DNA from: Deltaproteobacteria bacterium
GTDB lineage: Bacteria; Desulfobacterota; DSM-4660; Desulfatiglandales; HGW-15
Assembly (NCBI GenBank): GCA_016931115.1
Contig: JAFGFM010000032.1
Location: forward strand, 1-48,946
Direction of reading: 5' to 3'
Length of the DNA stretch: 48,946 nucleotides
Both the position numbers and the translations under genes were made by a program. The notes under the pieces are model-generated. The model saw only the letters and a list, made by a program, of their open reading frames with translations. It searched no databases and was not told the DNA's origin. Positions 7,834-47,283 of this stretch are shown piece by piece. Each line of letters begins with the position of its first letter. Within the stretch, counting starts at the first letter, position 1.

Positions 7834-7857
7834 AAAAAATGAATTTCGGTTATTATT

Positions 7858-7887: not shown

Positions 7888-7901
7888 AAGAGGGGTATCA
7901 A

Positions 7902-8198: not shown

Positions 8199-8236
8199 CA
8201 GCTTGAATACAATTGTTATTATTTTTCCAAACAATT

Positions 8237-8267: not shown

Positions 8268-8293
8268 TCTTTGTAGTTGTGATATGAGCAATA

Positions 8294-9373: not shown

Positions 9374-9405
9374 GAAGAAGGGTTTGAGGGTTCGAAGAGA
9401 AACTT

Positions 9406-9436
9406 AGAAGTCAGAAGACAGGAGTCAGAAGACAGA
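9406..9436. repeat. Short direct repeat between mqnC and mqnD
   Basis: The unit GTCAGAAGACA occurs at 9410-9420 and 9424-9434, within a purine-rich spacer. No gene is present; it is another sign of repeat activity within the mqn operon. Confidence 0.6.
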
Positions 9437-9454
9437 GATCAGTGAAAGATGTAA

Positions 9455-24479: not shown

Positions 24480-25412
24480 ATGGGTGAAAGAGAGAGGGAT
24501 ATTTCAATAAGTATCCAAAAGGTCAGGCATGTTTATAAAGGCGGAAACCCTGCCATCAATGGCATGAGCCTTGATATCCATACAGGGCTTTTCGGCATGC
24601 TGGGCCCTAACGGCGCAGGCAAAAGCACATTGATGCGTATTATTTGCAGCCTGCTTGTGCCAACAGAGGGGCGTGTTATTGTGGGGGGGCATGATGTGGT
24701 AAAGGAGCGCAGGCATGTAAGGAGGCTGCTTGGATATCTTCCACAGGATTTCAATGCATGGCGGCTTCACAGGGTGGAGGAGGTGCTTGGAACACTCGCT
24801 ACCCTTTCAGGCCTTGAGAATAATTCTGAAAGGAGGGCAAGGGTTGCTGAGATACTTGAACTGGTGGGTCTCCTCGATGTCTCCCACAGAAAGGTTAAAA
24901 GCCTGTCTGGCGGTATGGTCCGAAGGCTCGGTGTGGCCCAGGCCCTTATACATGACCCAAAGATTTTGATTGTTGATGAACCCACAGTTGGGCTTGACCC
25001 TGAAGAGCGCATACATTTCAGGCAGCTCATGGCAAAACTTGGAAAGGATAGGATCATTATCCTTTCCACCCATATAGTTGGTGACCTGGGTGCAGGATGT
25101 CATGACCTGGCCCTTATTGACCGCGGCAGGCTTGAGTTCAGGGGAAGCCCTGAAAAGCTTATAGCGCACGCAAAGGGGTTTGTTTTTGAGATACACATGG
25201 AGGGAAACAGGGCTGAACCTTCTGATCAATATGAGGTCGTATCCCAGGAACAGAAACTCGGGCGAACCATTATCCGCGTAGTATCCAGGATGGGAGAGAT
25301 CCCGGATGGCGCAGTCCCGGTTGATAACCCGACACTTGAGGAGGCCTATCTGGCATTTATGGCCTCAAACAGCGTAAAGCAGGCGGTAAAAGGTGGGGAG
25401 GTGCAATCATGA
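24480..25412 (+). CDS. ABC transporter ATPase (ABC-2/CcmA type)
   Basis: A 310-residue nucleotide-binding subunit: Walker A GPNGAGKST (42-50), Q-loop in YLPQDF, signature LSGGM (142-146), Walker B ILIVDEP (162-168), H-loop His198. The C-terminal 100 residues are the accessory domain seen in drug- and sodium-type exporters. It overlaps the next gene, a very large permease, in an ATGA junction. Its motifs (YLPQDF, VDEPTVGLDP followed by ERI.FR.L) closely resemble the ATPase domain at the end of the RND fusion protein (33024-37787), suggesting common descent of the two motors. Confidence 0.93.
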   Translation: MGERERDISISIQKVRHVYKGGNPAINGMSLDIHTGLFGMLGPNGAGKSTLMRIICSLLVPTEGRVIVGGHDVVKERRHVRRLLGYLPQDFNAWRLHRVEEVLGTLATLSGLENNSERRARVAEILELVGLLDVSHRKVKSLSGGMVRRLGVAQALIHDPKILIVDEPTVGLDPEERIHFRQLMAKLGKDRIIILSTHIVGDLGAGCHDLALIDRGRLEFRGSPEKLIAHAKGFVFEIHMEGNRAEPSDQYEVVSQEQKLGRTIIRVVSRMGEIPDGAVPVDNPTLEEAYLAFMASNSVKQAVKGGEVQS

Positions 25413-28400
25413 TGAATATAAAATCAATTCTATCCATAGCTAGGGCTGAGACACTGGTTATAAGGCGTCTCGCACGCTACTGGCTCTTTCTGGCCATCTC
25501 ATTCCTTTTTGTATTCATTGCATTTATCTACTACTCGGCGCTTCATGGCCTTTATTCATCCCATTCAGCAACAGTAGGCTTACTAAGCCCCAGATTCCTT
25601 GTGACTTCAATAGCCGGTGTATTGTACCTGGTGATATACTCTATCGGGGTGATATTTCTTGCCTTTGATGTGAGGGCAAGGGATTTAAGGGAAAGGATGC
25701 ATGAGGTGCTTGATTCAAGGCCATACAGCAACCTGGAGCTTGTTATCGGCAGGTTCCTGGGTGTCCTGATACCTGCATGGGTGCCTATGCTTTTTCTAAT
25801 AGTGCTGATCCAACTGGTGGGGTTTCTCTTAAAGACAAGCGGTATGCCCATTGGCGAGCCAGCTCAGATTACATCCCTCCTTTCATTTGTCTTTCTGATA
25901 GGGCTTCCTTCATTCGCATTTATAATCTCGATTGTCTTTCTTGTAACCCTTCTTGTAAGGAACAGGCTGGTTGCCTCCATAACACTTTTACTCCTTATAG
26001 CAGCGAGCTTCGGCGGGATGTATTTTTTACCTGTCTACAAGGCACGGGTATTTGATTTTCTTGGATTAATGCAGTCAGGCTACCCCTCTGATCTTACAGC
26101 ATCGTTTATGCCCCTTACCGGGATTATACACCGCGTTGCCACGCTTCTTGCCTCCCTTGGAATCCTGGGCATATGTGCGGCAGTGCATCCCCGTCTTGAT
26201 GACGGGTCGCGCGTGAAGACAGGTTTTATCGGCGCAATAGTAGTGGCAATTGCAGTGGTTATAACAGGGGGCATATTATATGGCCATATGAAGGAGATGA
26301 AAGACCAGGAGAGATGGCTTAAGACACAAATGGAATATCACAAAGCCCCTGTGCCTGACATCACAAAGATTTCTGGCAGGGTAGAGATATCACCCGGAAA
26401 AGAATTTATTCTTGATATAAAAATCGCATTCAGGGTGCCTGCTAACCCAATAAAAACCGCCCTGTTTACCCTGAACCCGGGGCAGAGGGTAGTTGAACTC
26501 CTTGACAGTTCCGGTAAACCATTAAGCTATAAGCATGAAGAGGGGATACTTGATATCACCATGCCTGATACCCTTACACAGGGTGAAGAGGTGGTAATAG
26601 GGCTTAAAACAGAGGGGGTGCCTGATAAACACTTTGCATATCTTAAAAGCGCTGTAAATCCCCTTAAGCTTAAGTCAAAAGATTCCAATACCACCCTTCT
26701 TGGTAATGAAAACTATGTTTTTGACAGGAAGTTTGTGGCCCTGATGCCTGCTGTCAGGTGGTTACCTTTATCAGGTGTAGAGAACAGCATGGAAAACCAG
26801 CAGAACAACCGCGTGGATTTTTTCAATGTTGACCTTACTGTTGGCGTGCCAAAGGGGTGGCTTGTTGCAGGGCCTGGAAGACGCAACAAGGCAGGCGAAG
26901 ATAAGAGGTTTGACCTGTACCGGTTTGCGCCTCCCTCTGTTGTACCGGAGGTGGCCATTCTGGCATCCGAGTATGAGAGCCGTTCATATGAAACAGATGG
27001 CATAGTGATGGAGCTTCTTGTTAATAAAAAGCACATTAAAAACCTTGATGTGCTGTCTGATACAAAAGAGAAGGTCAGGGAATATATTGATACAACCCTC
27101 CGTGAGGCAAAAGAGGCAGGACTTACCTACCCCTATGATGGCTTTTCCCTTGTTGAGGTGCCCACTAATTTACGCACCTATGGAGGAGGGTGGCGTCTTG
27201 ACACGGTTCAGACAATGCCGGGAATCATGCTCTTAAAGGAACTCTCTCTCCCTACCGCCAGGTTTGATTCAGCCTTCAGGAACCCTGACAAGTTTAAAAA
27301 CCAGGAGGGCGGCATAGTCAAGGCCAAGTGGGACAGGCTTATGTCCTATTTCCAGCAGGATTTTTCAGGGGGCAATATCTTTACCGGGGCAGCAAGGAAT
27401 TTTTTCCTCTTCCAGACCGCCGCAGGAGGGCCTGAAGGGATGCCTGTCAATTTTGTGATGGACACCCTGTCAGGTCTTGTTCTGGCAGATACAAAGGGGT
27501 ATTTCTCTGCCCATATATTTGCAGAGGGGAATGCGGTAAACCAGATCATACAGAATGTGATTGTGAGTTATTTCCAGCTCAGAAACGCAGGGATACAGGA
27601 CACTATTTTAAGCTCCACAATACGCACAAGGACATCACGCCCTGTAGTATGGGAAAAGGCACTTGAGTCATCACTTTTAGATATAGACCCCTGGAAAGAG
27701 CCTGCTGATATGGTCGACTATCTTATATTAAAGGGTTATGCGGTTGCAGACTCCATATATAAGACCCTGGGAAGGGAGAAGACTGCCGCATTCCTTGCAT
27801 CCATACGAAAGAATCATACAGGAGGCCAATTTTCGGTTTCAGATATGAAAACCGCCTTGAATGAACAGGGTTATGACATGGATGCATCCCTTGGTGACTG
27901 GCTGGGCAGTACCGGTCTTGCGGGGTTTGTTGTGCCTGAGGCAAAGGCTTACCGTGTAGCAGATGATGCGAACGGGAGCCCCAGGTACCAGCTCCTTTTT
28001 ACAGTAAGGAATGATGAGCCTGTACCTGGTACTTTTTACTTTGCATACTATTATACAGCACAGAACCAGAGGGCTGAGTTGATATCAGGTGAGACTATTC
28101 ACCTTGCAGGAAGACATGCTATCCAGTACGGCACAATAGTATCAAGAATGCCCACCATGTTTTTTCTTGCCCCTGTGCTTTCCTATAACAGGAGCACCTT
28201 TGAACTTAAGATGGCAAATTTTAATCCTGATAAGATAGTCGAGGCGGAGATAATTGAAGGTGTCAGGGATATCCCCTGGGAGCTCCCGGCCTCCGCCTCA
28301 ATAGTGGTGGATGACCTTGATGAGGGGTTCACTATTGTTAATGATAAAGAGGAAACCAAAGGGCTCAGGGTGAAGGCAAAGGCGAAAGACATGAGCAGGG

Positions 28401-28846
28401 ATCTTGATCAGGGGCTGCCCTATACCTCCTATAATGTACTGGTGGGAGGTTTAGGTCTGCCAGCAGAATGGACGCGCATAAGTAATGGCATGACCTATGG
28501 AAAGTACAGACATACAGCCGCATATATCAAGAGAGGCGAAGGGACAAAAAAGGCTGTTTTCAGTAGTGAGTTGCCACAGTCGGGCACATGGGATCTTGAG
28601 ATTTATATACCAATGAGGAATGTCTTTCCTGGTAAAAAATGGGGGAGATGGCATGGTGTTGTAATAGATAGAAATGGAGACAGGCATCAGGTTGAGTTTG
28701 ATTCAAAGACAGGAACTGAAGAGTGGAATCTCGCAGGGAAGTATGATTTTCCACAGGGTAAATGCACCCTGGAACTCTCTGATCTAACCGATGGGGATAT
28801 AGTGGTGGCAGATGCCATACGATGGACACCTTCTGCCGGAAAATGA
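25409..28846 (+). CDS. Giant ABC-2 permease with M1-like and golvesin-like domains
   Basis: 1145 residues. The first 300 form an ABC-2-type membrane domain with six to seven segments and the cytoplasmic DVRARDLRERMHEVLDSRPY coupling region. From about 310 to 830 is an extracytoplasmic part resembling the M1-aminopeptidase-like domains fused to some ABC permeases (DGFSLVEVPTNLRTYGGGW). No HEXXH zinc motif is present, so it is probably a binding rather than a catalytic domain. The last 150 residues (WDLEIYIPMRN to GDIVVADAIRWTP) match the golvesin C-terminal-like fold, often linked to carbohydrate-active proteins. It pairs with the ATPase just upstream. Confidence 0.85.
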   Translation: MMNIKSILSIARAETLVIRRLARYWLFLAISFLFVFIAFIYYSALHGLYSSHSATVGLLSPRFLVTSIAGVLYLVIYSIGVIFLAFDVRARDLRERMHEVLDSRPYSNLELVIGRFLGVLIPAWVPMLFLIVLIQLVGFLLKTSGMPIGEPAQITSLLSFVFLIGLPSFAFIISIVFLVTLLVRNRLVASITLLLLIAASFGGMYFLPVYKARVFDFLGLMQSGYPSDLTASFMPLTGIIHRVATLLASLGILGICAAVHPRLDDGSRVKTGFIGAIVVAIAVVITGGILYGHMKEMKDQERWLKTQMEYHKAPVPDITKISGRVEISPGKEFILDIKIAFRVPANPIKTALFTLNPGQRVVELLDSSGKPLSYKHEEGILDITMPDTLTQGEEVVIGLKTEGVPDKHFAYLKSAVNPLKLKSKDSNTTLLGNENYVFDRKFVALMPAVRWLPLSGVENSMENQQNNRVDFFNVDLTVGVPKGWLVAGPGRRNKAGEDKRFDLYRFAPPSVVPEVAILASEYESRSYETDGIVMELLVNKKHIKNLDVLSDTKEKVREYIDTTLREAKEAGLTYPYDGFSLVEVPTNLRTYGGGWRLDTVQTMPGIMLLKELSLPTARFDSAFRNPDKFKNQEGGIVKAKWDRLMSYFQQDFSGGNIFTGAARNFFLFQTAAGGPEGMPVNFVMDTLSGLVLADTKGYFSAHIFAEGNAVNQIIQNVIVSYFQLRNAGIQDTILSSTIRTRTSRPVVWEKALESSLLDIDPWKEPADMVDYLILKGYAVADSIYKTLGREKTAAFLASIRKNHTGGQFSVSDMKTALNEQGYDMDASLGDWLGSTGLAGFVVPEAKAYRVADDANGSPRYQLLFTVRNDEPVPGTFYFAYYYTAQNQRAELISGETIHLAGRHAIQYGTIVSRMPTMFFLAPVLSYNRSTFELKMANFNPDKIVEAEIIEGVRDIPWELPASASIVVDDLDEGFTIVNDKEETKGLRVKAKAKDMSRDLDQGLPYTSYNVLVGGLGLPAEWTRISNGMTYGKYRHTAAYIKRGEGTKKAVFSSELPQSGTWDLEIYIPMRNVFPGKKWGRWHGVVIDRNGDRHQVEFDSKTGTEEWNLAGKYDFPQGKCTLELSDLTDGDIVVADAIRWTPSAGK

Positions 28847-28859: not shown

Positions 28860-29960
28860 ATGAAAGAGAATTGTACATTCAGGATACTGGTAATTGTTTG
28901 CATCGCCCTTTCAGGTTTTCTTTCAGGGTGTTCACGTGAGGAGAGCAGTGATGACAAGATAGAATTTCTTGTGCCTGTAACCGTTTCAAAGGTGGATAAA
29001 ATGGATGTTGAAGAGCGGATAACGGCCACAGGCACCCTTCGCACCAGCAAGGTTGCAAGGCTTGAGGTGGAGACTGGCGGCATCCTTGAATTCTTAACAA
29101 ACAGGGATGGTAAACGCTATCGCGAAGGAGACAGCGTAAAGGCGGGTGATGTGATTGCCCGTATTACAGGTGATGACGTGCGCCTTGCAGCCAGAAAAGA
29201 TGCAACCCTCCAGAGGTTTGAGACGGCAAAAGACGATTATGAATCAACAAAAAAACTCTATGATGACGGTTTCAAAAGCAAGTCCGAGTTGCTCAAGGTG
29301 CAGTCAAGCCTTGAGGATGCAAGGGCGGATTATGAAAAGAGCCTGAATTCCGAAAAACGAAGCCAGCTCACCACGCCCATAGATGGCATTATCCTGAGGC
29401 TTGCAAGGGACAGGGACAATCAGAACCAGCCGCTTGCAGTCGGTCAGTATGTGAACCCGGGCTTTGAGGTGGCCCGCATTGCACCTACAGATACACTTAT
29501 TGCAGATGTGGACCTTGTGGCGCAGGATGTTGCAAGGGTCGCCGAGGGTCTCCCTGCAAGGGTGCAGCATTATGCATGGAAGGATGAAAATTTTGAAGGG
29601 AAGGTGGTAAGGCTTGACCCTGTTATAGACCCTACCACAAGGGCGCTCAAGGCAGAGGTGGAGGTTATTAATCATGATGCCAAACTCAGGCCGGGCATGT
29701 TTGTAGAGGTAACCATCATAAAAGATCAGAGAAAGGATGTCCCATGTATCTCCCGTGAGGCGGTTGTGAACAGGGGAGGCAAATGGGTAGTCTTTGTGCT
29801 TAGCGGTCAGAGGGTTAATAAAAAAGAGGTTGTTTTGGGGCTGGGTGATGACAATATCGTGGAGATCCGGTCAGGGCTCTCCGAGGGTGAAAGGGTTGTT
29901 ACAAGGGGCATTGAAACACTTGATGATCAGGTACGTGTCCGCGTGACAGGAAGCAATTGA
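28860..29960 (+). CDS. RND efflux periplasmic adaptor lipoprotein
   Basis: A 366-residue membrane-fusion protein of the AcrA/HlyD family. Lipobox LSGC with Cys24 anchors it to the inner membrane. Split lipoyl halves flank a short coiled-coil hairpin (LQRFETAKDDYESTKKLYDD to KSLNSEKRSQL); TTPIDGIILRLARDRDNQNQ and the beta-barrel and membrane-proximal domains follow. It bridges an RND pump to TolC. AAGGAG sits shortly before the ATG. It is followed, four bases on, by the RND permease. Confidence 0.9.
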   Translation: MKENCTFRILVIVCIALSGFLSGCSREESSDDKIEFLVPVTVSKVDKMDVEERITATGTLRTSKVARLEVETGGILEFLTNRDGKRYREGDSVKAGDVIARITGDDVRLAARKDATLQRFETAKDDYESTKKLYDDGFKSKSELLKVQSSLEDARADYEKSLNSEKRSQLTTPIDGIILRLARDRDNQNQPLAVGQYVNPGFEVARIAPTDTLIADVDLVAQDVARVAEGLPARVQHYAWKDENFEGKVVRLDPVIDPTTRALKAEVEVINHDAKLRPGMFVEVTIIKDQRKDVPCISREAVVNRGGKWVVFVLSGQRVNKKEVVLGLGDDNIVEIRSGLSEGERVVTRGIETLDDQVRVRVTGSN

Positions 29961-29964: not shown

Positions 29965-32900
29965 ATGCTAATACTTACACGATACGCGACGCGACGTCCT
30001 GTTGCTGTAACAGTGGTGGCAGCAGCCATTATCATGCTCGGGTGGATATCACTTAAAGGGCTCCCCCTTGACCTTTTGCCTGATATCCAGAGCCCTACCA
30101 TACTTGTCTCTGTTAAATCAGGTGACAGGCCCCCGACAGAGATGGAGAGGCTCTATGGGAAACAGGTGGAGCAGAGGCTCTTTACAGTAAAAGGGATAAG
30201 GACAATAAACCAGGTGGCCAGGGCCGGGAACCTTATAGCAAGGGTCACCTTTGAGTGGGACGCTGATATGGACCTGGCCCTTGTGGATATCCAGAAGGCG
30301 ATTGCCTCCATTTCTGCGGATGAGGATGTGGATGAGGTGGTGGTAAGGAGGCAGGACCCGCGTGAGCTTCCGGTTATTTCTATAGGTCTTGTTACAAAAG
30401 AGGCGCTTCCCGGCCTTACAGAACTGAAAAAGATTGCAGAAAGGATGATCGCCCCTGCATTTGAGCAGCTTGAGGGTGTGGCAGAGGTGAGGGTAACAGG
30501 CGGCCGTGAGGATGAGGTAAGGATTATTGCTGACCGATACCTGATGGATGCCCACTCCATAACAATGGCAGAGCTTGAAAACCGTATCAGGTCGGCCAAC
30601 ATCGACATAAGCGCAGGGACCCTTGAGGAGGGTGATAAGGTATACCTTGTAAGGGGGATATCCAGATTCAATAATACTGAAGATATTGCCCGCGTTGTGG
30701 TGAAATATGACCGTGATTCCAGTGAAAAATCCATACCTGTAAGGGTTGGAGATATTGCGAAAGTTATAGTTACAGACAAGGAGATCAGCGACCTCGTGCT
30801 TGTGAATGGTAAAGAGGGTATAAGCCTCTCCATCTATAAGGAGGCAGGGGCCAATACAGTAAAGGTATCACGTGATGTGAAGAAGGCCCTGACAGAGCTC
30901 AATAAAGAATTAAAGAATATGGAGTTCAGCGTGGTCAGCGATGAGGCCGCGCTGGTGGAGGATGCTATAAGTGATGTGGAGAGCTCTGCTGTAATCGGTA
31001 TTATCCTCGCAATTATTGTGCTCTGGTATTTTTTAAGATCATTGAGTTCAACAGTGATTGTGGCATCTGCCATACCGGTTTCTCTGATGGCAACCCTTTT
31101 TGCCATGCATTATGCAAAGCAGAGCCTTAACCTTATGACCCTTGGCGGCATGGCCCTCGGTGCAGGCATGCTTGTGGATAATGCCATTGTAGTAATAGAG
31201 AGCATCTTCCGCAGAAGGGAAGCAGGAGACCCTCCGGCAGAGGCGGCCTCAACGGGCACAGCGGTTGTCGCTGGTGCAATCATATCCAGTACCCTCACCA
31301 CAATCGTGGTATTTCTGCCTGTGCTTTTTATAAAGGGGCTTGCCGCAAGGCTTGTATCAGGCATCTCTTTTACAGTAATAGTCTCACTTGTCGCCTCTCT
31401 CGGTGTGGCGGTCTTTCTGATACCTGCTCTCGCAAAATGGTTTTTGCCAAAGGATGCGGCAAAGGAGATAAACCCCGGAAAGACGAAGGTCGAGGCATTC
31501 GTTTCAGGCCTGCTTAAACATCCATATCTGGTGGTTGCAGTATCCTTTATTATTGTTGCCGGGTCTGTATTTACTCTTATGGGTCTTAACAGCGAGCTTA
31601 TGGCCCCTACAGATCCGAGGCAGTTTTCCCTTCGTATCACCGGTGTTCCGGGGCAGAGGGTGGAAGCAACAAGGAACATGGTAACTGTTATAGAGGATAT
31701 AATAAGACAGGCGGCAGGGGATGACCTCAAGGCGATCCTCTCTGAGGTGGGCAGTCTCCCGGAGGATGACCATTTCATACGTGAAGAGCTGACAGGTGAA
31801 AACAGAGCCAGGATTCTGGTTAACCTTTCAACAGATGGAAAAACAGCCGGTCAGGTGGTTAAGCTTGCCTCCCCCATGATATCTGAGCTTAAAAATATCG
31901 AGGTCTCATGGGAACTGGGCACATCGGCTATAGCAAGGGCCATTGGTAATACCGGTCCTCCGATACAGGTTGAGATATCAGGTCAGTCCATCGACGATTT
32001 AAGAAAAACCGCAGGCGAGGTGTTATCAAAACTAACCACACTGCCGGAGCTGTGGAATGTCCGCTCTTCATTTGAAGGGGGGGCGCCCGAGCTTCATATC
32101 ATACTGAATCGAACCCTGTGCGATGGCCTGGGGGTTGATATAGAGACGCTTTCAAGGGTGATTGAGTCAGCCCTTGATGGCAAGGTTGTGACAGAGATGA
32201 CAACAGGGGATGAAGAGAGGGATGTTGTTTTGAAGATTGAACAGGGTAAGGATGCAGGGCTCAAATCCATACCCTTTACCACCTCAAAGGGGGAGCGCCT
32301 TACCATAGGGGATATCGCAGATTTTGTAAATGTAGATGGCGCCCTTGAGATCTTTAGACGTGACCAGAAAAGGGTGGCAATGGTGACTGCGAGGATCAGG
32401 GATGGGGTGGAGTACCCTGTAGCAAAGGCTGCCACAGAATCGGTGATTAACAGCATGGACCCGGGCCCCGGCCTTAGTATGAGGCTCACCGGTGAAGAGG
32501 AGGAGAGGGAGAAGACCTTTTCAGAACTTGAATGGGCAGGCATAATATCTATTATTCTTGTCTTTATGGTGCTGGCCGGCACCTTTGAATCATTCCTTCA
32601 TCCATTCACGGTGCTCTCCTCTATCCCCTTTGCCCTTATAGGGGTGGCGGCTGTCCTTGTACCGGCTGGAAGGCCCATAGGGATCATGGAGGCATTAGGT
32701 CTTATAGTCCTCACAGGTATTGCAGTAAATGATGCGATACTGATGGTCCAGACCGCAACGCAATTGATTCAGGATGGTGTTGAGAGAAAATTGGCCCTGG
32801 CCAAAGCGGCATCCATAAGGCTGAGACCAATTATAATGACATCTGCAACCACTATGCTTGCCCTTCTTCCCCTTGCTCTGGGTATAGGTGAAGCGGCCCA

Positions 32901-33027
32901 GCTCAGGGCGCCTATGGCCATTACAATTATAGGGGGGCTTGCTGCATCCACGATAACCTCCCTGTTTGTAATTCCCTGCCTCTATCTTGTGCTCGATAAA
33001 CTGCGATTCAAACGGGCAAAAGCATGA
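29965..33027 (+). CDS. RND efflux permease (HAE1/AcrB-like)
   Basis: A 1020-residue inner-membrane pump of normal AcrB-family length with twelve expected membrane segments and two large periplasmic loops. In the fourth segment the usual Asp-Asp pair is Asp405-Asn406 (GMLVDNAIVVIES); in the tenth the position of AcrB Lys940 reads Asn922 (GIAVNDAILMVQ). Such variants are common in HAE1 proteins of this type, and Asp923 may compensate. Its stop overlaps the start of the RND-ABC fusion (ATGA), so the two are made together and may form a mixed trimer. Confidence 0.92.
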   Translation: MLILTRYATRRPVAVTVVAAAIIMLGWISLKGLPLDLLPDIQSPTILVSVKSGDRPPTEMERLYGKQVEQRLFTVKGIRTINQVARAGNLIARVTFEWDADMDLALVDIQKAIASISADEDVDEVVVRRQDPRELPVISIGLVTKEALPGLTELKKIAERMIAPAFEQLEGVAEVRVTGGREDEVRIIADRYLMDAHSITMAELENRIRSANIDISAGTLEEGDKVYLVRGISRFNNTEDIARVVVKYDRDSSEKSIPVRVGDIAKVIVTDKEISDLVLVNGKEGISLSIYKEAGANTVKVSRDVKKALTELNKELKNMEFSVVSDEAALVEDAISDVESSAVIGIILAIIVLWYFLRSLSSTVIVASAIPVSLMATLFAMHYAKQSLNLMTLGGMALGAGMLVDNAIVVIESIFRRREAGDPPAEAASTGTAVVAGAIISSTLTTIVVFLPVLFIKGLAARLVSGISFTVIVSLVASLGVAVFLIPALAKWFLPKDAAKEINPGKTKVEAFVSGLLKHPYLVVAVSFIIVAGSVFTLMGLNSELMAPTDPRQFSLRITGVPGQRVEATRNMVTVIEDIIRQAAGDDLKAILSEVGSLPEDDHFIREELTGENRARILVNLSTDGKTAGQVVKLASPMISELKNIEVSWELGTSAIARAIGNTGPPIQVEISGQSIDDLRKTAGEVLSKLTTLPELWNVRSSFEGGAPELHIILNRTLCDGLGVDIETLSRVIESALDGKVVTEMTTGDEERDVVLKIEQGKDAGLKSIPFTTSKGERLTIGDIADFVNVDGALEIFRRDQKRVAMVTARIRDGVEYPVAKAATESVINSMDPGPGLSMRLTGEEEEREKTFSELEWAGIISIILVFMVLAGTFESFLHPFTVLSSIPFALIGVAAVLVPAGRPIGIMEALGLIVLTGIAVNDAILMVQTATQLIQDGVERKLALAKAASIRLRPIIMTSATTMLALLPLALGIGEAAQLRAPMAITIIGGLAASTITSLFVIPCLYLVLDKLRFKRAKA

Positions 33028-36000
33028 GCTGGTATAACATCCCGGTAAAAAGGCCTGTTGCCACAGCCATGTTTTTCTGCGCCATCCTGCTTCTGGGGCT
33101 GGTGGGGTGGGAGCGGATACCTGTTGAGCTTATACCTGACCTTGAGGGTGACAGCATCCATATTGATTTTATGAGGCTTAACAGCGAGCCTGAGGTGGTT
33201 GAGCGTGAGATCCTTATCCCGCTTGAGGAGAAGGCCTCAGCGCTTGAGGGGATAAAAGAGACATTCGGGAGCGTTAATGGCTCAAGAGGCTCCCTGGATA
33301 TTAATTTTGAACCAGGCACAGATATCAAGATCAGGCAGCTTGAGCTCCAGCGTATAGCTGCTGAGCTTAACAGGGAACAGCCAAGGGGCTCAATCATAAA
33401 TGTCGGCGGCCAGGATTTTTCCATGATTAGCCGGATCGTCATGAGTATACAGGTGATTGGCGGTGATGATACAGACAGCCTGAGGAGTTTTGTCGAGGAG
33501 AATATAGAGACACGCATTGCAGCGGTAAATGGTGTGGCCAATGTGTTTGTGATGGGCGGGGCGCCGGAGGAGATAACCATAAGGGTTGACCCTGATAAAT
33601 GCTCTGCCCTTGGTATTTCGCCCCAGGAGGTGTCTTCAACCCTTTCACGTTCTGTTCAGAGACTGAAATTTCTGGGTGGTCTTGAAGAGAGTTCAATGCG
33701 GAGACCGGTTATCCTGGATGGCAGGCCTAAAGGGGTATATGAGCTGGGAGAGTTAAGGATAACTCCCGAAAGATCTGTGCTTATACGTCATGTAGCTGAA
33801 GTGGCTAAGGGTACAGGCAGAAATGAGAGTATATACAGGATAAACAGCAAACCATCGGTTGCACTCGCAGTATTCAAGGAGGAGGGTGCAAACCTTGTTG
33901 AACTGGGTAAAGAGATCAGGGGGCGTCTCACTGAACTTAAAAAGGAGTTTAAGCCCTATGGTATAGATTTTTTAACCGGGTTTGATGCTGCAAAGACAGT
34001 TGAGAAACAGATAGACCGGCTTAAGAAGCTTGCCCTGAGCGGGTTTATTATCTCCCTTGTCATACTCTTTCTTTTTATAAAAAAGTTCAGGGCAATTACT
34101 GTTGTGGCTATTGCAGTGCCTGTGAGCCTTTTATCCTCAATGGCCTTTCTATATACAGGCGGATATACGCTAAATCTTATAACACTCGTGGGGCTCGCTG
34201 TTGGTGTTGGTATGCTTGTAGATAACAGCATTGTTGTCTATGAGGCGGTTCAGCGGAGGCTTGAGAGGGGTGTTGACCCGGACAGGGCCGCAGGAGATGG
34301 TGTGAGGATAACCTTTAAGGCGATCCTTGCCTCAACAATAACAAACGCCATTGTCTTTATGCCCATATTCTTTCTGGTGGAGGATAGCATGCTGAGGGGG
34401 GTGATGAAGCTCCTTGCCGCCGCAATACTTATCCCTTTAGGGGCATCACTGCTTGTAGCCATAGGGCTTGTCCCTCTTTTAGCCAGAAGATTTGCCGCAC
34501 CTGCTGCCATGGATCGGCTTAAGGCAGTGAAAAAACGCAGGGAACTCTTTGCAGGGCTCCATTTACCTGACAGGTGGAGGGATCTGTTTACAGGTCTTTT
34601 GAAAAACTCCATGCGGAACCCGGCAACCTGGATCATGGTTATAACAGCGGCCCTGTTTATTACAATAGTTGTAGGGCTGCCCTGGGTTATGATCGGATCA
34701 AGAAACCAGGAGGCACAGGAGGCGGATGAGATACAGCTTGCCATTGATGTCCCGGCAGGGGATTCCCTTGAGTCAATAAGCAGGGACTTCTATTCACTTG
34801 AACAGGAGGCCCTTAAAATAGAGGGTGTGGAATCTGTTGAAAGCATGATACAGGAAAAGAACAGCACCCTTACCATCAGGTTTGTTGAAAAGGAGATGCG
34901 CCCGCCCGAACTTACTGCCCCTTTTGTGAGAAGTAAGATCAATTTCGCTGCAAAAAAGCTAAAGGGGTTTGATGTCAGTTCACAAAATTCAGCCGGACAG
35001 GGTGGTGGAGGCAGGCGGGGGTCCGGTGCTGCAACCCTCATGGGCCAGGGTGGATCTGAGATTGTTTTATCCGGTGCTGATTCAAAAAAATTGATGGACA
35101 TAGCCCTGTCATTAGAGGAGAGGCTCGAATCCATCCCTGAGATCGGTGAGTATGGAGTGCAGATATCTTCAAGGCCTGGTCAGGATGAGATACACATAAT
35201 CCCCGAGCACAGGATACTTAACAGCCTGGGGCTCTTCTCGGATCAGGTCTTTATCATGCTGAGGCTGGCGCTCTCACGGGAAGGCACACAGATGAGCGCC
35301 GGCACAATAGAGGCAGATGGAAAAGAGATCCCGATTGTTATCAGGAGCAGTGAGACTGAATCAAACAACCTGAGCCAGCGAATGGAGGATCTCAGGGTCA
35401 ATACTTCTGCCGGTGTCATAACACTGGGGTACATATCTGATGCCCGCAAGATGCCCCCGCCAAGTGTGATCGAGCACCATAATGGAAGGCGGGAGATGGC
35501 GGTTAACTACTCATTTAAGAGGGATGCCCCATCCACAGGGCCGGCCCGTGAGGCACTGGATAATGAGATCCTGAGCATGATAGAGTCAGTGCCTGTGCCC
35601 GAAGGTTATATAATAGACCCTACTGAGAATAACGAAACAGCGAGCATGGCAAGGCGTATTCTTATCCCTATTGTGCTTTTACTCTTTGCGGTTCTGGCCA
35701 TTACCTTTGAATCCCTTACCATGCCTGTGCTTGTGCTGCTCGCAGCCCCCCTGACCATCATCGGGGCGGTATGGGCGCTCTGTTTTGCAGGTATGCCCCT
35801 GTTAAGCCCTATGGCCATAGCTGGAATGGTCGTTCTTATGGGGATCATGGTTAACCCGGCGATTCTGCTTGTGGACAGGATGCAGGAGAGGGTGCTTGGA
35901 AGCAGGTGGTCAGCAGGCGCTGCTGCCCTTGCAGCGGTCAGGGAACGGTCAAGGCCGGTACTTATGACAACCGCCACAACCATTGCAGGCCTATGGCCCC

Positions 36001-37787
36001 TTGCCATCTCTACAGGTGCTGAAAATGAGATGTGGCCCCCTTTTGCTGTTGTGATAATGGGAGGGCTTGTGACTTCAAGCCTGCTTATCCTCCTTGTTAT
36101 TCCAATAGGGTTTGTGTTCTTAAGCCGTATAGACAGGATCTTTGGCAGGCTCGGGCCTTGGATAACCCTATCATGGATATGCGCAACGGCTATTTGCATG
36201 ACCCCGCTCATATATTTTGAACAGATAACAACGCTTACATGGCAGGTAACAACCACCATTCTGGTCGCATCGGTATTCTTAGGTATATTTGTGCTCATTT
36301 TCCGCAAACCAGAGCTGCCTCAACCCTCGGAAGGCGTTGAGGTGGAGGTAAAATATATTCACAAGATATATGGCAAACCCGGCCCCATAGGCAAGGCCAT
36401 CAGGGCTGGGGAGCATTTTGCCTTAAAGGTGCTTAACCGCGGAGGAAAGCCATTTTTGCCCTCTGATGTTATCCAGCCCATGATAACAGTTATAGTGCTT
36501 CTTATGGGGGTGTCATATCTTGCCTTTTCACTGAGCACCATCTTCTGGCGTCTCGTCTTTTCATTTGCAGGGGCTGTCCTGCTCATAAGATTACTTGACC
36601 TTATACGAAAACTGCGCGGCGAATGTGATGAAAAGGGGAATGCATTACCGGGCGGGATTGAAAACATGCTCGCCACCCTTATTCCATGGGGTGTTCTTTG
36701 CCTGAATGGGCTGTTCTATTACCTGGCGCCTCTATCTGTTGGTAAGCATCCGCGAATGGCCCTGTTTCCCATGTTGCTCATTGCCCTTCTGATTCTTTTT
36801 ATTCAGGCGGGCAGGAAGACCGCAAAGGATTTTTCATTAGGTAAAGTGAGAAATGGATTTGAAACAGGTTTCAGTTACCGGACAAAACTCCTCTGGCGAA
36901 GTATGTGCCGTCTCCTATTTGGTCTTGATTTGCCAAGGGATGAACATCAGGCCCTTAAGAATATTAACTTCAGGGCGAAAAGGGGCATGATAGGTATACT
37001 TGGCCCAAATGGCGCAGGTAAAACAACACTGTTAAGGGCAATAGCGGGTGTACTTGAGCCAACTACAGGCGCAATAACACTCGGTGGAGTGCCCCTTAAA
37101 AAGATCAGGAGGTACCTCGCCAACTGGGTAGGGTATCTGCCACAGGATTTCGGCCTGCCTAAAAACCTTACAGGCAGGGAATACCTTGAATATTATGCCC
37201 TTTTATACAGGATAGATGAAAAGGATAAGATAATTGAAAGGGTCAATTTTTTACTTACCGAGGTTGGGCTTGCTGAACAGGCGGATAAAAGGATCGGGGA
37301 TTATTCAGGCGGCATGAGGCAGCGTGTGGCGGTTGCACGCACACTCTTAAGGCTTCCTCCTGTGATCATCGTGGATGAGCCGACAGTGGGGCTTGACCCA
37401 AAGGAGCGTATCAGGTTTAGAAATCTCCTCTCAAGACTTGCTGAGACAAGGATAGTGCTCTTTTCCACCCATGTTGTTGAGGATGTTGCCGTGGCATGCG
37501 AGAGGGTTATTGTGCTTTCAAAGGGAGAAAAGGTCTTTGATGGTGAACCTGGGTTGCTCGCATCTGTTGCTGATGGAAAGACATGGGAGATGAGGATCAG
37601 GGAGGGTGAAGAAGATAACCTGCCTGAAAATGCCATTGTGGTGGATCAGGTGCCTGAGGCCGGAGGGACATACCATGTCAGGATACTCTATCATGAGTCG
37701 CCAGCCCCGGATGCAAAGGCTGTCACCCCCAATCTGCAGGATGGGTATTTGGAGCTTGTGGGGACGAGAAGGAAGAGGGTAGTGTAA
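33024..37787 (+). CDS. Fused RND permease and ABC transporter ATPase
   Basis: 1587 residues in one uninterrupted frame. Residues 1 to about 1035 are a complete RND permease (PVKRPVATAMFF start, periplasmic domains, two membrane blocks). About 1047-1267 hold six further hydrophobic segments. Residues about 1290-1587 are a full ABC ATPase: Walker A GPNGAGKTT (1327-1335), YLPQDF Q-loop, signature SGGMRQ (1428-1433), Walker B VIIVDEP (1447-1453), H-loop His1483. The RND relay keeps Asp400 (VDNS) but has Asn944-Pro945 (VNPAIL) in the second half. A Gly/Arg-rich loop (QGGGGRRGSG) lies in the second periplasmic region. ABC-2 permeases flank it. I know of no characterised transporter with this arrangement. 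Confidence 0.93.
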   Translation: MSWYNIPVKRPVATAMFFCAILLLGLVGWERIPVELIPDLEGDSIHIDFMRLNSEPEVVEREILIPLEEKASALEGIKETFGSVNGSRGSLDINFEPGTDIKIRQLELQRIAAELNREQPRGSIINVGGQDFSMISRIVMSIQVIGGDDTDSLRSFVEENIETRIAAVNGVANVFVMGGAPEEITIRVDPDKCSALGISPQEVSSTLSRSVQRLKFLGGLEESSMRRPVILDGRPKGVYELGELRITPERSVLIRHVAEVAKGTGRNESIYRINSKPSVALAVFKEEGANLVELGKEIRGRLTELKKEFKPYGIDFLTGFDAAKTVEKQIDRLKKLALSGFIISLVILFLFIKKFRAITVVAIAVPVSLLSSMAFLYTGGYTLNLITLVGLAVGVGMLVDNSIVVYEAVQRRLERGVDPDRAAGDGVRITFKAILASTITNAIVFMPIFFLVEDSMLRGVMKLLAAAILIPLGASLLVAIGLVPLLARRFAAPAAMDRLKAVKKRRELFAGLHLPDRWRDLFTGLLKNSMRNPATWIMVITAALFITIVVGLPWVMIGSRNQEAQEADEIQLAIDVPAGDSLESISRDFYSLEQEALKIEGVESVESMIQEKNSTLTIRFVEKEMRPPELTAPFVRSKINFAAKKLKGFDVSSQNSAGQGGGGRRGSGAATLMGQGGSEIVLSGADSKKLMDIALSLEERLESIPEIGEYGVQISSRPGQDEIHIIPEHRILNSLGLFSDQVFIMLRLALSREGTQMSAGTIEADGKEIPIVIRSSETESNNLSQRMEDLRVNTSAGVITLGYISDARKMPPPSVIEHHNGRREMAVNYSFKRDAPSTGPAREALDNEILSMIESVPVPEGYIIDPTENNETASMARRILIPIVLLLFAVLAITFESLTMPVLVLLAAPLTIIGAVWALCFAGMPLLSPMAIAGMVVLMGIMVNPAILLVDRMQERVLGSRWSAGAAALAAVRERSRPVLMTTATTIAGLWPLAISTGAENEMWPPFAVVIMGGLVTSSLLILLVIPIGFVFLSRIDRIFGRLGPWITLSWICATAICMTPLIYFEQITTLTWQVTTTILVASVFLGIFVLIFRKPELPQPSEGVEVEVKYIHKIYGKPGPIGKAIRAGEHFALKVLNRGGKPFLPSDVIQPMITVIVLLMGVSYLAFSLSTIFWRLVFSFAGAVLLIRLLDLIRKLRGECDEKGNALPGGIENMLATLIPWGVLCLNGLFYYLAPLSVGKHPRMALFPMLLIALLILFIQAGRKTAKDFSLGKVRNGFETGFSYRTKLLWRSMCRLLFGLDLPRDEHQALKNINFRAKRGMIGILGPNGAGKTTLLRAIAGVLEPTTGAITLGGVPLKKIRRYLANWVGYLPQDFGLPKNLTGREYLEYYALLYRIDEKDKIIERVNFLLTEVGLAEQADKRIGDYSGGMRQRVAVARTLLRLPPVIIVDEPTVGLDPKERIRFRNLLSRLAETRIVLFSTHVVEDVAVACERVIVLSKGEKVFDGEPGLLASVADGKTWEMRIREGEEDNLPENAIVVDQVPEAGGTYHVRILYHESPAPDAKAVTPNLQDGYLELVGTRRKRVV

Positions 37788-37903
37788 AAGATGAACTTTG
37801 AACATCGAACATTGAACGCTCAACGTCGAATGTGACAGGGAATTCAAGGTTTAAGGTTTAAAGTTCAAAGTTGGATGTTCGATGTTGGACGTTCATCTTT
37901 TTA
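37788..37903. repeat. Imperfect long inverted repeat of TTGAACAT type
   Basis: Left arm (37787-37815, AAAAGATGAAC, then CATCGAACAT) and right arm (37874-37903) are inverted copies with local mismatches, separated by about 60 bases. The inner part also matches, inverted, the repeat at 43399-43433. It lies inside the transporter operon between the fusion gene and its small permease. Confidence 0.65.
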
Positions 37904-37922
37904 TGAAAAAGGTGTTTTCAAG

Positions 37923-38618
37923 ATGATCGACAATATAAAAAGATACTTGATGCTGATGAAATACTCTGGTCGCCTTATGGCAGGCAAACGGTTCTGGATA
38001 ATAATATTCCTGCCACTTATCTGGCCTGTTTTACGTGCCCTGTTCATCGGGATCGGATGGAGTGAAACAAAATTTAACCCTGCTGATGCACATATGCTAA
38101 TCTCCCTGCCACTTTCCATTGTCGCAATGGGGCTGGGGTTGCGCATCATAGCAGGGGAGATAGATAGCAGGACACTTGAGATTGCCTACACTGTGCCAGG
38201 CGGGTGTCACAGGGTATGGCTCGCCAAGATAGCAACATGTTTTTGTCTGCTCTTTGCAAGTGAGCTACTGCTTGTTCTTTTTACAATGGTCTTTCTTGTG
38301 TCTGTTTCAATTGGGGCATTCTATGGCGCTCTCCAGGCCGCCATGTTTTATCTTGTTATGGGCATGGGGCTTTCAGCATTTTTCAGGAGTGAGATTACAG
38401 GGGCTATGGCAACTATTGTCTTTTTTGCATTGGGGCTTATGGCCAGTTCGGTCCGCATATCGCCATTTTTTAACCCCCTTGCATTGAGCCCTTCTGAAAA
38501 GGCACAGGCTGTTACCTATGCAATACAGAACAGGATATTTTTTATAATTTTTATTGTGGCAATAACCCTGCTCACCTTCCTGCGTGTGGAAAGAAGGGAA
38601 AAGATGCTGAGAGATTAG
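37923..38618 (+). CDS. ABC-2-type permease
   Basis: A 231-residue integral membrane protein with six hydrophobic segments. The start at ATG 37923 (AAGG upstream) is preferred; an earlier in-frame start would fall inside the inverted repeat. The cytoplasmic loop GEIDSRTLEIAYTVPGGCHR, then VWLAKI, is the coupling motif of ABC-2 exporters. It directly follows the RND-ABC fusion, whose ATPase domain has no separate permease partner, so this protein may supply one. Confidence 0.82.
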   Translation: MIDNIKRYLMLMKYSGRLMAGKRFWIIIFLPLIWPVLRALFIGIGWSETKFNPADAHMLISLPLSIVAMGLGLRIIAGEIDSRTLEIAYTVPGGCHRVWLAKIATCFCLLFASELLLVLFTMVFLVSVSIGAFYGALQAAMFYLVMGMGLSAFFRSEITGAMATIVFFALGLMASSVRISPFFNPLALSPSEKAQAVTYAIQNRIFFIIFIVAITLLTFLRVERREKMLRD

Positions 38619-38882: not shown

Positions 38883-40157
38883 ATGGATAGAGCAATTGAA
38901 AAAAAGGGATGGCCTCCCAAAAAGCTTATTTTTGTATCTTGTATCTGTGCGATTATTATCTTTCTGGCATATCTTGTAATATCGCGTTCAGGGACAACAA
39001 GACTCACTGTTGACCCCACCAGGATGACCATATCAGAGGTCAAATATGGTGAATTCCGGGAATACTACCCCTTTGACGGTCAGGTGATTCCATTAACCTC
39101 TGTATACCTTGATGTGGATCAGGGAGGAAAGGTGGAAGAACTTTATGTCGAAGGAGGTAAACCTATCGAGAAGGGAGATCTTATCCTGAAATTTTCAAAT
39201 AACAGTGTCCAGATGGATCACATTCGAACGGAGACCGCTCTGTTTGAAAACCTTGATAGCCAGCAAAACACCCAGCTTCTACTGGCCAAGGATAAACTCA
39301 ACAGAAAAGAAACACTGCTGACTTATAATTATGAAATAATCAAGCTTGAAAAACAGTATAACCGTTACAAGGTATTAAAGGCCGAAGAGATTGCCATATC
39401 AGAAGAAGAGTATGAGACGGTTGCTGATCAACTGGAATACAAAAAAGCACAGAGAGAGTTACTCAAGGAGCGTATAAAGCAGGAGGATATCATGGCTGAT
39501 AAGCAACTGGAGCAGGCAGAGAAGGCAATAGAACGCATCAATCTCAGCCTTGATATACTTTCCAAACAGATAGAGAGCATGGTGGTCCGTGCACCCATCT
39601 CGGGACACCTCTCAAGCATAAACGCTGAGATCGGTCAGCAAATCAATCCTGGCCAGCGTATTGGTCAGATAGATATCCTCGATAAATTCAAGATCAGGGC
39701 GGGTGTGGATCAGTATTACAACTCAAAGGTAACTGTCGGGACAAAAGGTAAATTCACCCTTGATAATAAGAGTTATGAAGTTGAGGTCATAAAGATTTAT
39801 CCGGAGATAATTAACAATTTATTTACTGTGGACATGGCCTTTTCAGATGAACCGCCCGCAGGGATCAAACGCGGTCAGACACTTACTGTAGAATTAACAT
39901 TCAGTGAAGCGGAGCAAAGGCTGATGGTGACAAAGGGCGGATTCTTCCAGGAGACAGGAGGCAGATGGGTATACATTGTATCACAGGATGGAGCAACCGC
40001 ACAGCGAGTTGATATCCGCCTGGGCCGTCAGAACCCCCGATATGTAGAGGTTTTGGAAGGGTTAAAGGAAGGAGACATGGTAGTTACATCTGGTTATGAC
40101 ACATTCAAGGAAGCGGACACTTTGATATTTAAGGAGCCAATAAGTCTTGCTCAGTAA
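38883..40157 (+). CDS. Membrane-fusion (HlyD/MacA-like) adaptor protein
   Basis: 424 residues with one N-terminal membrane anchor (LIFVSCICAIIIFLAYLVIS). A split lipoyl domain flanks a long coiled-coil hairpin (about 110-240, KDKLNRKETLLTYNYEIIKL to QLEQAEKAIERINLSLDIL), then barrel and membrane-proximal domains (VRAPISGHLSSINAEIG). Unlike the adaptor at 28860 it is not a lipoprotein. GAGGAATTC precedes the ATG. The gap of 264 bases upstream suggests its own promoter, although none stands out. It forms a MacAB-like unit with the two following genes. Confidence 0.9.
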   Translation: MDRAIEKKGWPPKKLIFVSCICAIIIFLAYLVISRSGTTRLTVDPTRMTISEVKYGEFREYYPFDGQVIPLTSVYLDVDQGGKVEELYVEGGKPIEKGDLILKFSNNSVQMDHIRTETALFENLDSQQNTQLLLAKDKLNRKETLLTYNYEIIKLEKQYNRYKVLKAEEIAISEEEYETVADQLEYKKAQRELLKERIKQEDIMADKQLEQAEKAIERINLSLDILSKQIESMVVRAPISGHLSSINAEIGQQINPGQRIGQIDILDKFKIRAGVDQYYNSKVTVGTKGKFTLDNKSYEVEVIKIYPEIINNLFTVDMAFSDEPPAGIKRGQTLTVELTFSEAEQRLMVTKGGFFQETGGRWVYIVSQDGATAQRVDIRLGRQNPRYVEVLEGLKEGDMVVTSGYDTFKEADTLIFKEPISLAQ

Positions 40158-40190
40158 ATATCATTTATAAACTAAAAGGAGGGTATTCTA

Positions 40191-40859
40191 ATGATTATTG
40201 AAACCAGTAAATTGACAAAGGTTTATCGCACAGATGAAGTTGAAACCACAGCTCTTGACGCAATTGAGTTTAACCTTAAAGAGGGAGAATTTGTATCGGT
40301 CATGGGGCCCTCCGGCTGCGGCAAGTCAACGCTTCTCCACATCCTGGGGTTGATCGATAATCCAACCGAAGGAAGCTACCGGTTTTTGGGAGAAGAGGTA
40401 TCAAAGTATTCCGAATCAAAAAGGGCTTCACTCCGCAAAGCCAACATCGGGTTTGTGTTCCAGAGTTTTAACCTGATAGATGAGTTAACCGTGTATGAGA
40501 ATGTTGAATTGCCGCTGATCTATCTTAAAACCCCATCCAATGAAAGAAAGGCCAAGGTAGATAAAGTTCTTGAGAAACTGGACATGGCCAATCGTGGCAA
40601 ACATTTTCCAAGGCAGCTCTCAGGAGGTCAACAGCAAAGAGCAGCAGTGGCCAGGGCAATTGTTAATGAACCTAATTTAATATTGGCAGATGAACCGACT
40701 GGTAACCTGGATTCAAAAAACAGTATTGAAGTAATGAACATGATGAAAGGCTTAAACGAAGAAGGCACCACCATTCTGATGGTTACTCATTCAGATGAGA
40801 TGGCAAAATTCAGCAGCCGTGTAATACAGTTACTGGATGGTAAAGTCGTTTCACAATAA
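40191..40859 (+). CDS. MacB/LolD-type ABC ATPase
   Basis: A 222-residue ATPase: Walker A GPSGCGKST (39-47), signature LSGGQ (143-147), Walker B LILADEP (163-169), H-loop His200. This is the type that drives mechanotransmission exporters (MacB, LolCDE, FtsEX). AAAGGAGGG precedes the ATG. It is followed after 19 bases by its FtsX-type permease; transport would be periplasm to outside through the adaptor and TolC. Confidence 0.93.
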   Translation: MIIETSKLTKVYRTDEVETTALDAIEFNLKEGEFVSVMGPSGCGKSTLLHILGLIDNPTEGSYRFLGEEVSKYSESKRASLRKANIGFVFQSFNLIDELTVYENVELPLIYLKTPSNERKAKVDKVLEKLDMANRGKHFPRQLSGGQQQRAAVARAIVNEPNLILADEPTGNLDSKNSIEVMNMMKGLNEEGTTILMVTHSDEMAKFSSRVIQLLDGKVVSQ

Positions 40860-40878
40860 ACAATTGAGGAGAGAGTAT

Positions 40879-43398: not shown

Positions 43399-43433
43399 AG
43401 TTGGAAGTTGAGCGTTCAATGTTGGAAGTTCAA
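43399..43433. repeat. TTGGAAGTT-type repeat, inverted relative to 37803-37824
   Basis: GTTGGAAGTT occurs twice around GAGCGTTCAAT. Its reverse complement matches the left arm of the inverted repeat at 37788-37903 (ATTGAACGCTCAAC). It lies just before the repeat-protein gene. Confidence 0.55.
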
Positions 43434-43460
43434 GTTTTTCTTCACCTTAAGGAGGAAATG

Positions 43461-45636: not shown

Positions 45637-47283
45637 ATGAAACAAAAGAAGAGAGGGAATATCAGGTTTTTACCAGCTATCTTCATAAGCTGTATACTCC
45701 TGTTTAATGGCTGCACATATGTGGATAAGTTTAAAGAGATTAATTCTACCCCGGCTATCATGGTTATTCCTGCTGAAAAGGTGCAGCAGATAGATATGAT
45801 TGAGCTGAAAAAGGCCCCTGATGAGGCGATTGTAAAGCCGGAAACAGTAGAACCTGAAAAGGCAGAGTATACGCTTTCTCTTGAGGAGTGCCGAGCCCTT
45901 ACACTAGAAAATAATCTTGATTTGAAGGCAGAGCTCATTAACCCGACTATTGAAAAAGAAAACCTAAAACAGGCAGAGGCAAGCAAGTTCGAGGCTACAT
46001 TTACCGGGAACACAAGTTATAACAGAGATAATACCCCAACCGATTCACTTCTGGTAGGTTCCAGCAGTGAAAGAGTAAATATCAACCTTGGTGTAGATAT
46101 CCCCATCAGTACGGGCGGAACAGTCTCCTTTGATCTGGCCGATACCCTTAATAAGACCAATTCTACATGGGCAACCCTTAACCCTTCCTATAATTCAGGT
46201 CTTAGCGCCTCCATCAGTCAGCCCCTTTTAAAAAATGCAGGCCGCAGGGCATTTACCCATTCTATCCGCCTTGCCCAGTATAACAGCAGCATGACCGATC
46301 TGAGTACAAAGCTTGCTGCCATGCGTATAATAGCCAATGCAGACAGGGCATACTGGAGTCTTTATTCAGCCAGAAAAATGCTTGATGTAAGAAAACAGCA
46401 GTATGACCTTGCAAAGGCCACTCTTGAGGAGACAGAACGTTTTGTTGAGGTGGGTGTAAAACCCAGGATAGAGATAATAAGGACCAAGAGAGACCTTGCA
46501 GACAAACTTACAGCAATTATAGATGCAGAAAATAATGTCAGGGAAAGGGAGAGGGATCTTAAACGCATGCTCAATAAAAAAGGGCTTGGCATGGAGACAA
46601 AGACTGTCCTGATCCCATCTTCTCTGCCCGATCCTGTTCGTTATGAGCTTGACAGAAACAGGATGGTGGAAAATGCGCTCCTTAACAGGATGGATCTTCT
46701 TGAACTTGAGCTTCAGCTTGAAATGGACAGCATGACTATCGAGTATAACCGCAATCAGACGCTTCCTGACCTGTCATTTGAATACAGATATAATATTGAT
46801 GGCCTGGGCGCTGACAGGGGCGATTCATATGACATGCTCGCAGATAATGATTATCATGATCACCAGGTTGGCATACGTATGAATATACCTATTGGTAATA
46901 AAAGGGCCAAGAGTGAACTCAGGAAGTCCATTTATCAGCGTGCAAAGCACCTTTCTTCAAAAGAGAGTAAAGAGGCTGAGATCAGGAACGATGTCTTGAA
47001 TAATATAGACAAGGTAGAGGCAAAATGGCAGAGCATACTGGCAAGCAGGCAGAGTACAATACTCTCTGATGAACAGTACAGGGCGGAAAAACGGCAGTAT
47101 GAACTGGGGCTTGTGAGTTCAAGGGAGGTCATGGATGCCCAGACCAACCTTGCAGCGGCCCAGAGCGCAGAGATTACCTCTTTAACAGATTATCAGACCG
47201 CCCTTATAGACCTTGCCTATGCAACAGGCACGCTCCTTGGGGCAGCCAAGGTAGAGTGGGCACCTGTTGTGCCAGTGGAATAG
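45637..47283 (+). CDS. TolC-family outer-membrane efflux factor (lipoprotein)
   Basis: 548 residues. AAGGAGG precedes the ATG; the signal peptide ends at NGC, a tolerable lipobox, as in OprM-like factors. Two OEP repeats follow: LSLEECRALTLENNLDLKAE begins the first; the second carries LRKSIYQRAKHLSSKESKEA and ends with YETALIDLAYATG-like sequence (DYQTALIDLAYATG). The trimer would form the outer-membrane channel for the adaptors upstream. Being the only outer-membrane factor in the cluster, it may serve both the RND and the MacAB-like modules. Confidence 0.9.
   Translation: MKQKKRGNIRFLPAIFISCILLFNGCTYVDKFKEINSTPAIMVIPAEKVQQIDMIELKKAPDEAIVKPETVEPEKAEYTLSLEECRALTLENNLDLKAELINPTIEKENLKQAEASKFEATFTGNTSYNRDNTPTDSLLVGSSSERVNINLGVDIPISTGGTVSFDLADTLNKTNSTWATLNPSYNSGLSASISQPLLKNAGRRAFTHSIRLAQYNSSMTDLSTKLAAMRIIANADRAYWSLYSARKMLDVRKQQYDLAKATLEETERFVEVGVKPRIEIIRTKRDLADKLTAIIDAENNVRERERDLKRMLNKKGLGMETKTVLIPSSLPDPVRYELDRNRMVENALLNRMDLLELELQLEMDSMTIEYNRNQTLPDLSFEYRYNIDGLGADRGDSYDMLADNDYHDHQVGIRMNIPIGNKRAKSELRKSIYQRAKHLSSKESKEAEIRNDVLNNIDKVEAKWQSILASRQSTILSDEQYRAEKRQYELGLVSSREVMDAQTNLAAAQSAEITSLTDYQTALIDLAYATGTLLGAAKVEWAPVVPVE

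Follow-up and report, generated by a model that had tools for sequence, protein, structure and literature searches.

A conserved fusion of an RND permease with a split ABC ATPase in a six-gene cluster of putative export function

A stretch of 48,946 nucleotides from a deltaproteobacterial metagenome assembly (contig JAFGFM010000032.1 of GCA_016931115.1), referred to here as the window, encodes an RND permease and an ABC ATPase joined in one protein of 1587 residues. Judging from its recurrence among genomes, this RND-ABC fusion is a conserved family and not a one-off. Its part families are known, and their combination, together with the splitting of the ATPase domain by membrane helices, is new as far as could be searched. 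The fusion occurs in dozens of species within the same six-gene cluster, which suggests a type of hybrid export machine not described before.

The fusion protein and its distribution

The fusion is encoded by a single frame that runs from an ATG at 33024 to a stop at 37787 and contains no internal stops. An earlier note on this DNA had described it as a complete RND permease and a complete ABC ATPase in one protein, and both Pfam domains are indeed present in this one frame: the permease part (RND2) has a full-length RND permease domain (PF00873), and the ATPase part (NBD2) has the complete set of ABC ATPase (PF00005) motifs. The intact Walker A, signature, Walker B and H-loop that had been reported were each located in NBD2, with Walker A at aa 1327-1335, the Q-loop region at 1372-1377, the signature YSGGMRQ at 1427-1433, Walker B (VIIVDEPT) at 1447-1454 and the H-loop (STH) at 1481-1483. 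The best ABC models for NBD2 were GldA and DrrA, both scoring below their cut-offs. The count of six extra membrane segments also held, two following RND TM12 (aa ~1045-1064 and 1071-1092) and four at aa ~1146-1271, but the earlier note had overlooked that they are divided two and four by the β1/A-loop of the ATPase itself. The gene and its parts are as follows.

33024..37787, forward strand: RND2::NBD2 fusion gene (1587 aa); its start overlaps the stop of RND1 (gene 29965-33027)
33036..36122, forward strand: RND permease domain, aa 5-1033 (ACR_tran, profile positions 3-1020 of 1021, E 1.7e-146)
36156..36299, forward strand: two predicted extra helices leading from RND TM12 to the ATPase, aa ~1045-1092 (AlphaFold2 model, hydropathy)
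36342..36374, forward strand: displaced β1/A-loop of NBD2, VEVKYIHKIYG, aa 1107-1117 (excision test, KxY in 31 of 31, model strand, VIA alignment)
36459..36836, forward strand: predicted four-helix membrane block inside NBD2, aa ~1146-1271 (model, hydropathy, alignment; homologous in both branches)
36936..37553, forward strand: NBD2 core with Walker A, Q-loop, signature, Walker B and H-loop, aa ~1305-1510 (motifs; ABC_tran at aa 1311-1454, profile positions 1-136 of 137, E 2.1e-29)
37554..37784, forward strand: predicted C-terminal accessory domain of NBD2, aa 1511-1587 (strands and a helix in the AlphaFold2 model)

When the domain fusion was looked for across genomes, as the earlier note had proposed, it was found to recur in related genera, in Acidobacteriota, in a gammaproteobacterial MAG and in a divergent second branch. 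Full-length fusions are present in two genomes of related genera (G001, 89% identity; G006, 61%), and full-length conservation at 50-89% identity extends over genera and phyla. A linker scan of genome contigs yielded eleven loci. Beyond the family of the window, six loci have a fusion frame of 1578-1595 aa, five from Acidobacteriota (L033, L035, L036, L037 and L038, among them a multi-megabase contig of Acidobacteria bacterium Mor1) and one from the gammaproteobacterial MAG (L040); the frame of L036 runs open to the end of its contig. The linker profile matched 32 of 396 sampled Acidobacteriota genomes, some of these matches being partial or at contig ends, 3 of 395 genomes from the phylum of the window, 1 of 53 from the order of the gammaproteobacterial L040 and, as a broken copy, 1 of 245 from the phylum to which L032 belongs. 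The second branch (L080-L084, L154 and G765) has the same architecture, and because a profile of its membrane block also retrieves first-branch members, the block appears to be homologous in both. The profile of clade B (A8) gave no matches in 297 genomes of the window's phylum, a sample that may omit the known positive G077, so that this result is not evidence of absence. No place on plasmids covered 80% of a C-terminal query, and the matches listed were ordinary ABC ATPases. A search confined to RND1 in the order found no unfused form of the cluster.

An artefact of assembly or sequencing is an extremely improbable explanation: the window comes from a MAG of 240 contigs, but the same fusion is present in many independent genomes, including the Mor1 contig. 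Between G000 and G001, dN/dS was 0.04-0.16 in all segments and 0.038 in the NBD, which is under strong purifying selection. Conservation of the full-length fusion and the low dN/dS rule out chance or an error of assembly, a frameshift or chimera is rejected on the conservation, and the uninterrupted frame and cross-genus conservation likewise exclude a stop or frameshift between the halves, the flaw against which the earlier note had cautioned.

Several loci were set aside. That of Moorena bouillonii (L039) was not counted, as it is 100% identical to Mor1 over 4948 bp and is probably contamination, which suggests a contaminated public genome. The Neomarinimicrobiota hit (L032/L178), broken or chimeric, was not counted as a full fusion, since only aa 888-1365 matched. 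An RND permease joined to an OEP domain in another genome (G020:C38) is unrelated to the RND-ABC fusion; its frame (1531 aa in G020:C38, 1518 aa as L155:4710-9263) has a full ACR_tran and an OEP domain that meet at a lipoprotein-like signal, and either a fusion or the loss of a stop could account for it.

A displaced β1/A-loop in the ATPase domain

ABC ATPases require a β1 strand and an A-loop aromatic residue ahead of the core, and in ordinary NBDs the gap from A-loop to Walker A is approximately 25 residues. NBD2 is not continuous in this sense, as four helices intervene. A KxY motif is present in all 31 fusion sequences (L154 included) at 194-220 residues ahead of Walker A, and its K and Y are invariant in an alignment of 30 fusions. 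In an excision test, every 13-mer from the sequence preceding the NBD core was attached to the core in silico and scored against a profile of 38 unfused NBDs. Of the ~250-270 positions scanned ahead of the core, the KxY segment came first in 29 of 29 sequences, gaining 6-10 bits. These 29 are related sequences rather than independent trials, and the two branches concur. In an earlier run with 5 training NBDs, the KxY segment was top within the linker and one RND 13-mer scored marginally higher.

Structure prediction agrees with this placement. An AlphaFold2 model of aa 1030-1587 built from 30 sequences (pLDDT 84) shows aa 1107-1116 as a strand, separated from the next one by four long helices, while in an earlier run with 9 sequences pLDDT was 63 and β1 was not clear. 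VIA-align superposed 226 of the 230 residues of LptB (4p31) on the model at 1.7 Å, over model residues 76-547, and aligned 273 residues with 4yer (Z 30.1, 4.3 Å). Because the β1/A-loop lies approximately 200 residues ahead of Walker A, we conclude from the sequences and the model that NBD2 is a split domain, with four membrane helices inserted within the ATPase and two more joining it to RND TM12. As the six helices are thus divided by the β1/A-loop and do not form a single linker, the ATPase domain is predicted to start near aa 1105 and not at 1305. The ATPase parts would remain cytoplasmic, since the helix counts are even. In these searches, the membrane block was found only in fusion frames or in frames ended by a contig edge.

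The six-gene cluster

The fusion belongs to a recurrent gene order, NBD1 - TMD1 - MFP - RND1 - RND2::NBD2 - TMD2. Its other members in the window, and a candidate outer-membrane channel downstream, are as follows.

24480..25412, forward strand: NBD1, separate ABC ATPase, 310 aa (ABC_tran E 9e-32; tree; synteny)
25409..28846, forward strand: TMD1, 1145 aa, ABC-2-like helices and a large periplasmic part (profile matches)
28860..29960, forward strand: RND-type periplasmic adaptor (MFP), 366 aa (TIGR01730 E 9e-53, above cut-off)
29965..33027, forward strand: RND1, ordinary RND permease, 1020 aa (ACR_tran 3-1020 of 1021, E 2e-202)
37875..38618, forward strand: TMD2, ABC-2-like permease, 247 aa (ABC2_membrane_4 E 2.4e-5, below the Pfam cut-off; conserved beside the fusion)
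45637..47283, forward strand: candidate outer-membrane channel (OEP), 548 aa (OEP E 7.6e-47; 57% identical to L030:240-1880)

Wherever the upstream flank of a first-branch locus was read, NBD1 (~60% identity or more) precedes TMD1; these loci are ten in one set plus L099, L100, L030, L028 and the window. TMD2 lies downstream of the fusion wherever the downstream flank was read, at 1.4 kb in L093 and as a weak match only in L083. In the divergent branch TMD2 is also found in L082, L083 and L154, and NBD1 is present in L082, where it is divergently transcribed; the sequence of G077 stops short of the NBD1 position. Genes for the MFP, RND1 and RND2 sit side by side in the window and at most loci, and a second RND gene stands beside the fusion wherever the contig allows. 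An apparent loss of RND1 in L087 (G804) is no clear exception, the sequence being gapped at the start of the fusion. An outer-membrane factor is encoded within the cluster in L154 and, as the homolog of the window's OEP gene, directly after TMD2 in L030. Some Acidobacteriota loci (L094, L101 and L088) have two TMD2-like genes beside the fusion.

In a tree with 32 other NBDs of the genome, NBD1 and NBD2 fall apart from the rest as sister clades (0.80, moderate support), each of them monophyletic (0.95 and 0.94). Matches of TMD1 and TMD2 to ABC2 membrane Pfam models were below cut-offs, and neither protein had an FtsX or MacB_PCD match. They align weakly with each other (189 columns, hhalign probability 9%, E 0.0037), and similarity of TMD2 to the C-terminal region that contains the inserted block was absent (hhalign probability 0.7%). 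Beside its ABC-2-like helices, TMD1 has an M1-aminopeptidase-like stretch, in which HExxH is absent in 7 of 7 orthologs, and a golvesin C-terminal domain.

The interval from TMD2 to the OEP gene in the window holds a second adaptor, an ABC ATPase and a MacB-like permease (38883-43308); the MacB-like gene at 40837-43308 belongs to this separate downstream set. An ORF of 694 aa at 43401-45485 has no Pfam match. Far upstream, at 2863-10267, UbiD, UbiA and flavoprotein genes, two radical SAM CofH/MqnC-like genes and two VitK2_biosynth genes form what looks like a futalosine menaquinone cluster.

Energy coupling and comparison with known pumps

ABC ATPases work as dimers and need a membrane partner, and the ABC-2 family consists mostly of exporters. 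Because the cluster supplies NBD1 and two ABC-2-like proteins, we favor a composite envelope exporter, in which a heteromeric ABC-2 exporter (NBD1/NBD2 with TMD1/TMD2) is tethered to a two-subunit RND pump, as the probable, if far from assured, reading. The steps of assembly and coupling, all of which we infer, would be the following. NBD2 of the fusion would pair with NBD1 to power TMD1/TMD2, the four together making up a heteromeric ABC-2 exporter. A mixed trimer would form from RND1 and RND2, most simply with RND1 twice and RND2 once on the pattern of MdtB2C, for which the known mixed trimer MdtB2C1 is a precedent (PMC7015380). If by this analogy there is perhaps one RND2 per trimer, each trimer would carry one NBD2, and hence one ABC exporter would be tethered to each RND pump. 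The ABC half would use ATP to move substrate from the cytoplasm or inner leaflet and hand it to the RND, adaptor and outer-membrane channel, to be expelled with the ion drive, while the 2+4 extra helices would hold the ATPase at the membrane beside the RND bundle. That ATP hydrolysis and the ion-driven RND cycle are, in addition, mechanically coupled through the one polypeptide, giving a dually energised envelope pump, is a more tentative idea and on balance doubtful; here the split ATPase would pass motion into the membrane via its four inserted helices.

The proton relay bears on the source of energy. By motif alignment, RND2 keeps D400, R975 and T982, the equivalents of D407, R971 and T978 of AcrB, and has N401 and N944 at the positions of D408 and K940, so that the complete AcrB-type relay (D407, D408, K940, R971 and T978) is absent from RND2. 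Similar replacements at the D408 and K940 positions occur in unfused RND pumps of the order, and therefore the sequence gives no indication that ATP has taken over from the ion drive; the relay of the fusion appears not to be specially altered, with no sign of lost ion drive beyond the norm of the order.

The earlier note had suggested that ATP hydrolysis might drive or gate an RND trimer, or that a three-motor ring might sit beneath it. A direct action of the fused ATPase on the trimer, with the fusion as a homotrimer or with NBD2 homodimers between trimers and no ABC-2 partner, draws on the covalent link, on the two helices beside RND TM12 and on a membrane-anchored split NBD that could transmit motion. 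It is nevertheless unlikely, as NBDs need a dimer, the loci examined have NBD1, TMD1 and TMD2 alongside the fusion, every contig long enough to show it has a second RND gene as the neighbor, and the relay resembles that of unfused relatives. Because the cluster encodes a second RND permease, a fusion homotrimer is not obligatory, and the three-motor ring becomes the less likely arrangement given the sister NBD1, two ABC-2-like proteins and second RND. What stands of the earlier suggestion is the covalent join.

The ABC part might instead be regulatory or mechanotransmitting in the manner of FtsEX or MacB, moving the periplasmic part of TMD1 to gate or remodel the RND/adaptor assembly, while the ABC half itself would carry no substrate. 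The very large periplasmic part of TMD1, with its M1-like region devoid of HExxH and its golvesin domain, would suit such a role, but TMD1 and TMD2 resemble the mostly exporting ABC-2 family and not FtsX or MacB, and we consider this quite unlikely. Two independent transporters in one operon, with the fusion setting only their ratio or location and the ATP and ion cycles uncoupled, are very unlikely even though each part is complete by itself, for the fusion persists over phyla with a conserved 2+4 helix anatomy, and a mere co-expression device should often be lost or split, whereas no split copy was seen.

The composite exporter that we favor has partial counterparts among known pumps. Like MdtABC and MuxABC, it combines genes for two different RND permeases with one adaptor; those systems have no ABC ATPase, ABC-2 genes or fusion, and here RND1 and RND2 are only ~28% identical. 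In MacAB-TolC an ABC ATPase works with an adaptor and an outer-membrane channel, components also found alongside each other here, although MacB is FtsX-like and has no RND part, whereas the membrane partners here are ABC-2-like and RND. Resemblance to GldA/DrrA-type ABC-2 exporters lies in the sub-threshold matches of NBD2 to the GldA and DrrA models and in the weak matches of TMD1 and TMD2 to ABC-2 membrane families; the differences are that NBD2 is joined to an RND permease and that ~200 residues with four membrane helices come between its A-loop and Walker A. RND2 itself resembles AcrB-type HAE1 permeases in its full ACR_tran domain and in three relay residues, and differs from them in its two Asn replacements and in the six helices and ATPase beyond TM12. 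The covalent RND-ABC join is real, and a characterised example was not found in the open-access literature that was searched. The portion consulted of a review of tripartite pumps of the ABC, RND and MFS types contains no RND-ABC fusion (PMC8277102).

Annotated domain by domain, this protein would pass as an RND permease or as an ABC ATPase, and the composite would be overlooked. The predicted anatomy of NBD2 raises a structural question, namely how an ABC motor can accommodate a membrane domain placed between A-loop and Walker A. By convention, RND and ABC pumps belong to distinct superfamilies, each with an energy source of its own. With a conserved protein that joins the two within a six-gene cluster, whether ATP and ion gradients drive one export machine becomes directly testable, and dual-energy coupling, if true, would constitute a kind of pump not previously described.
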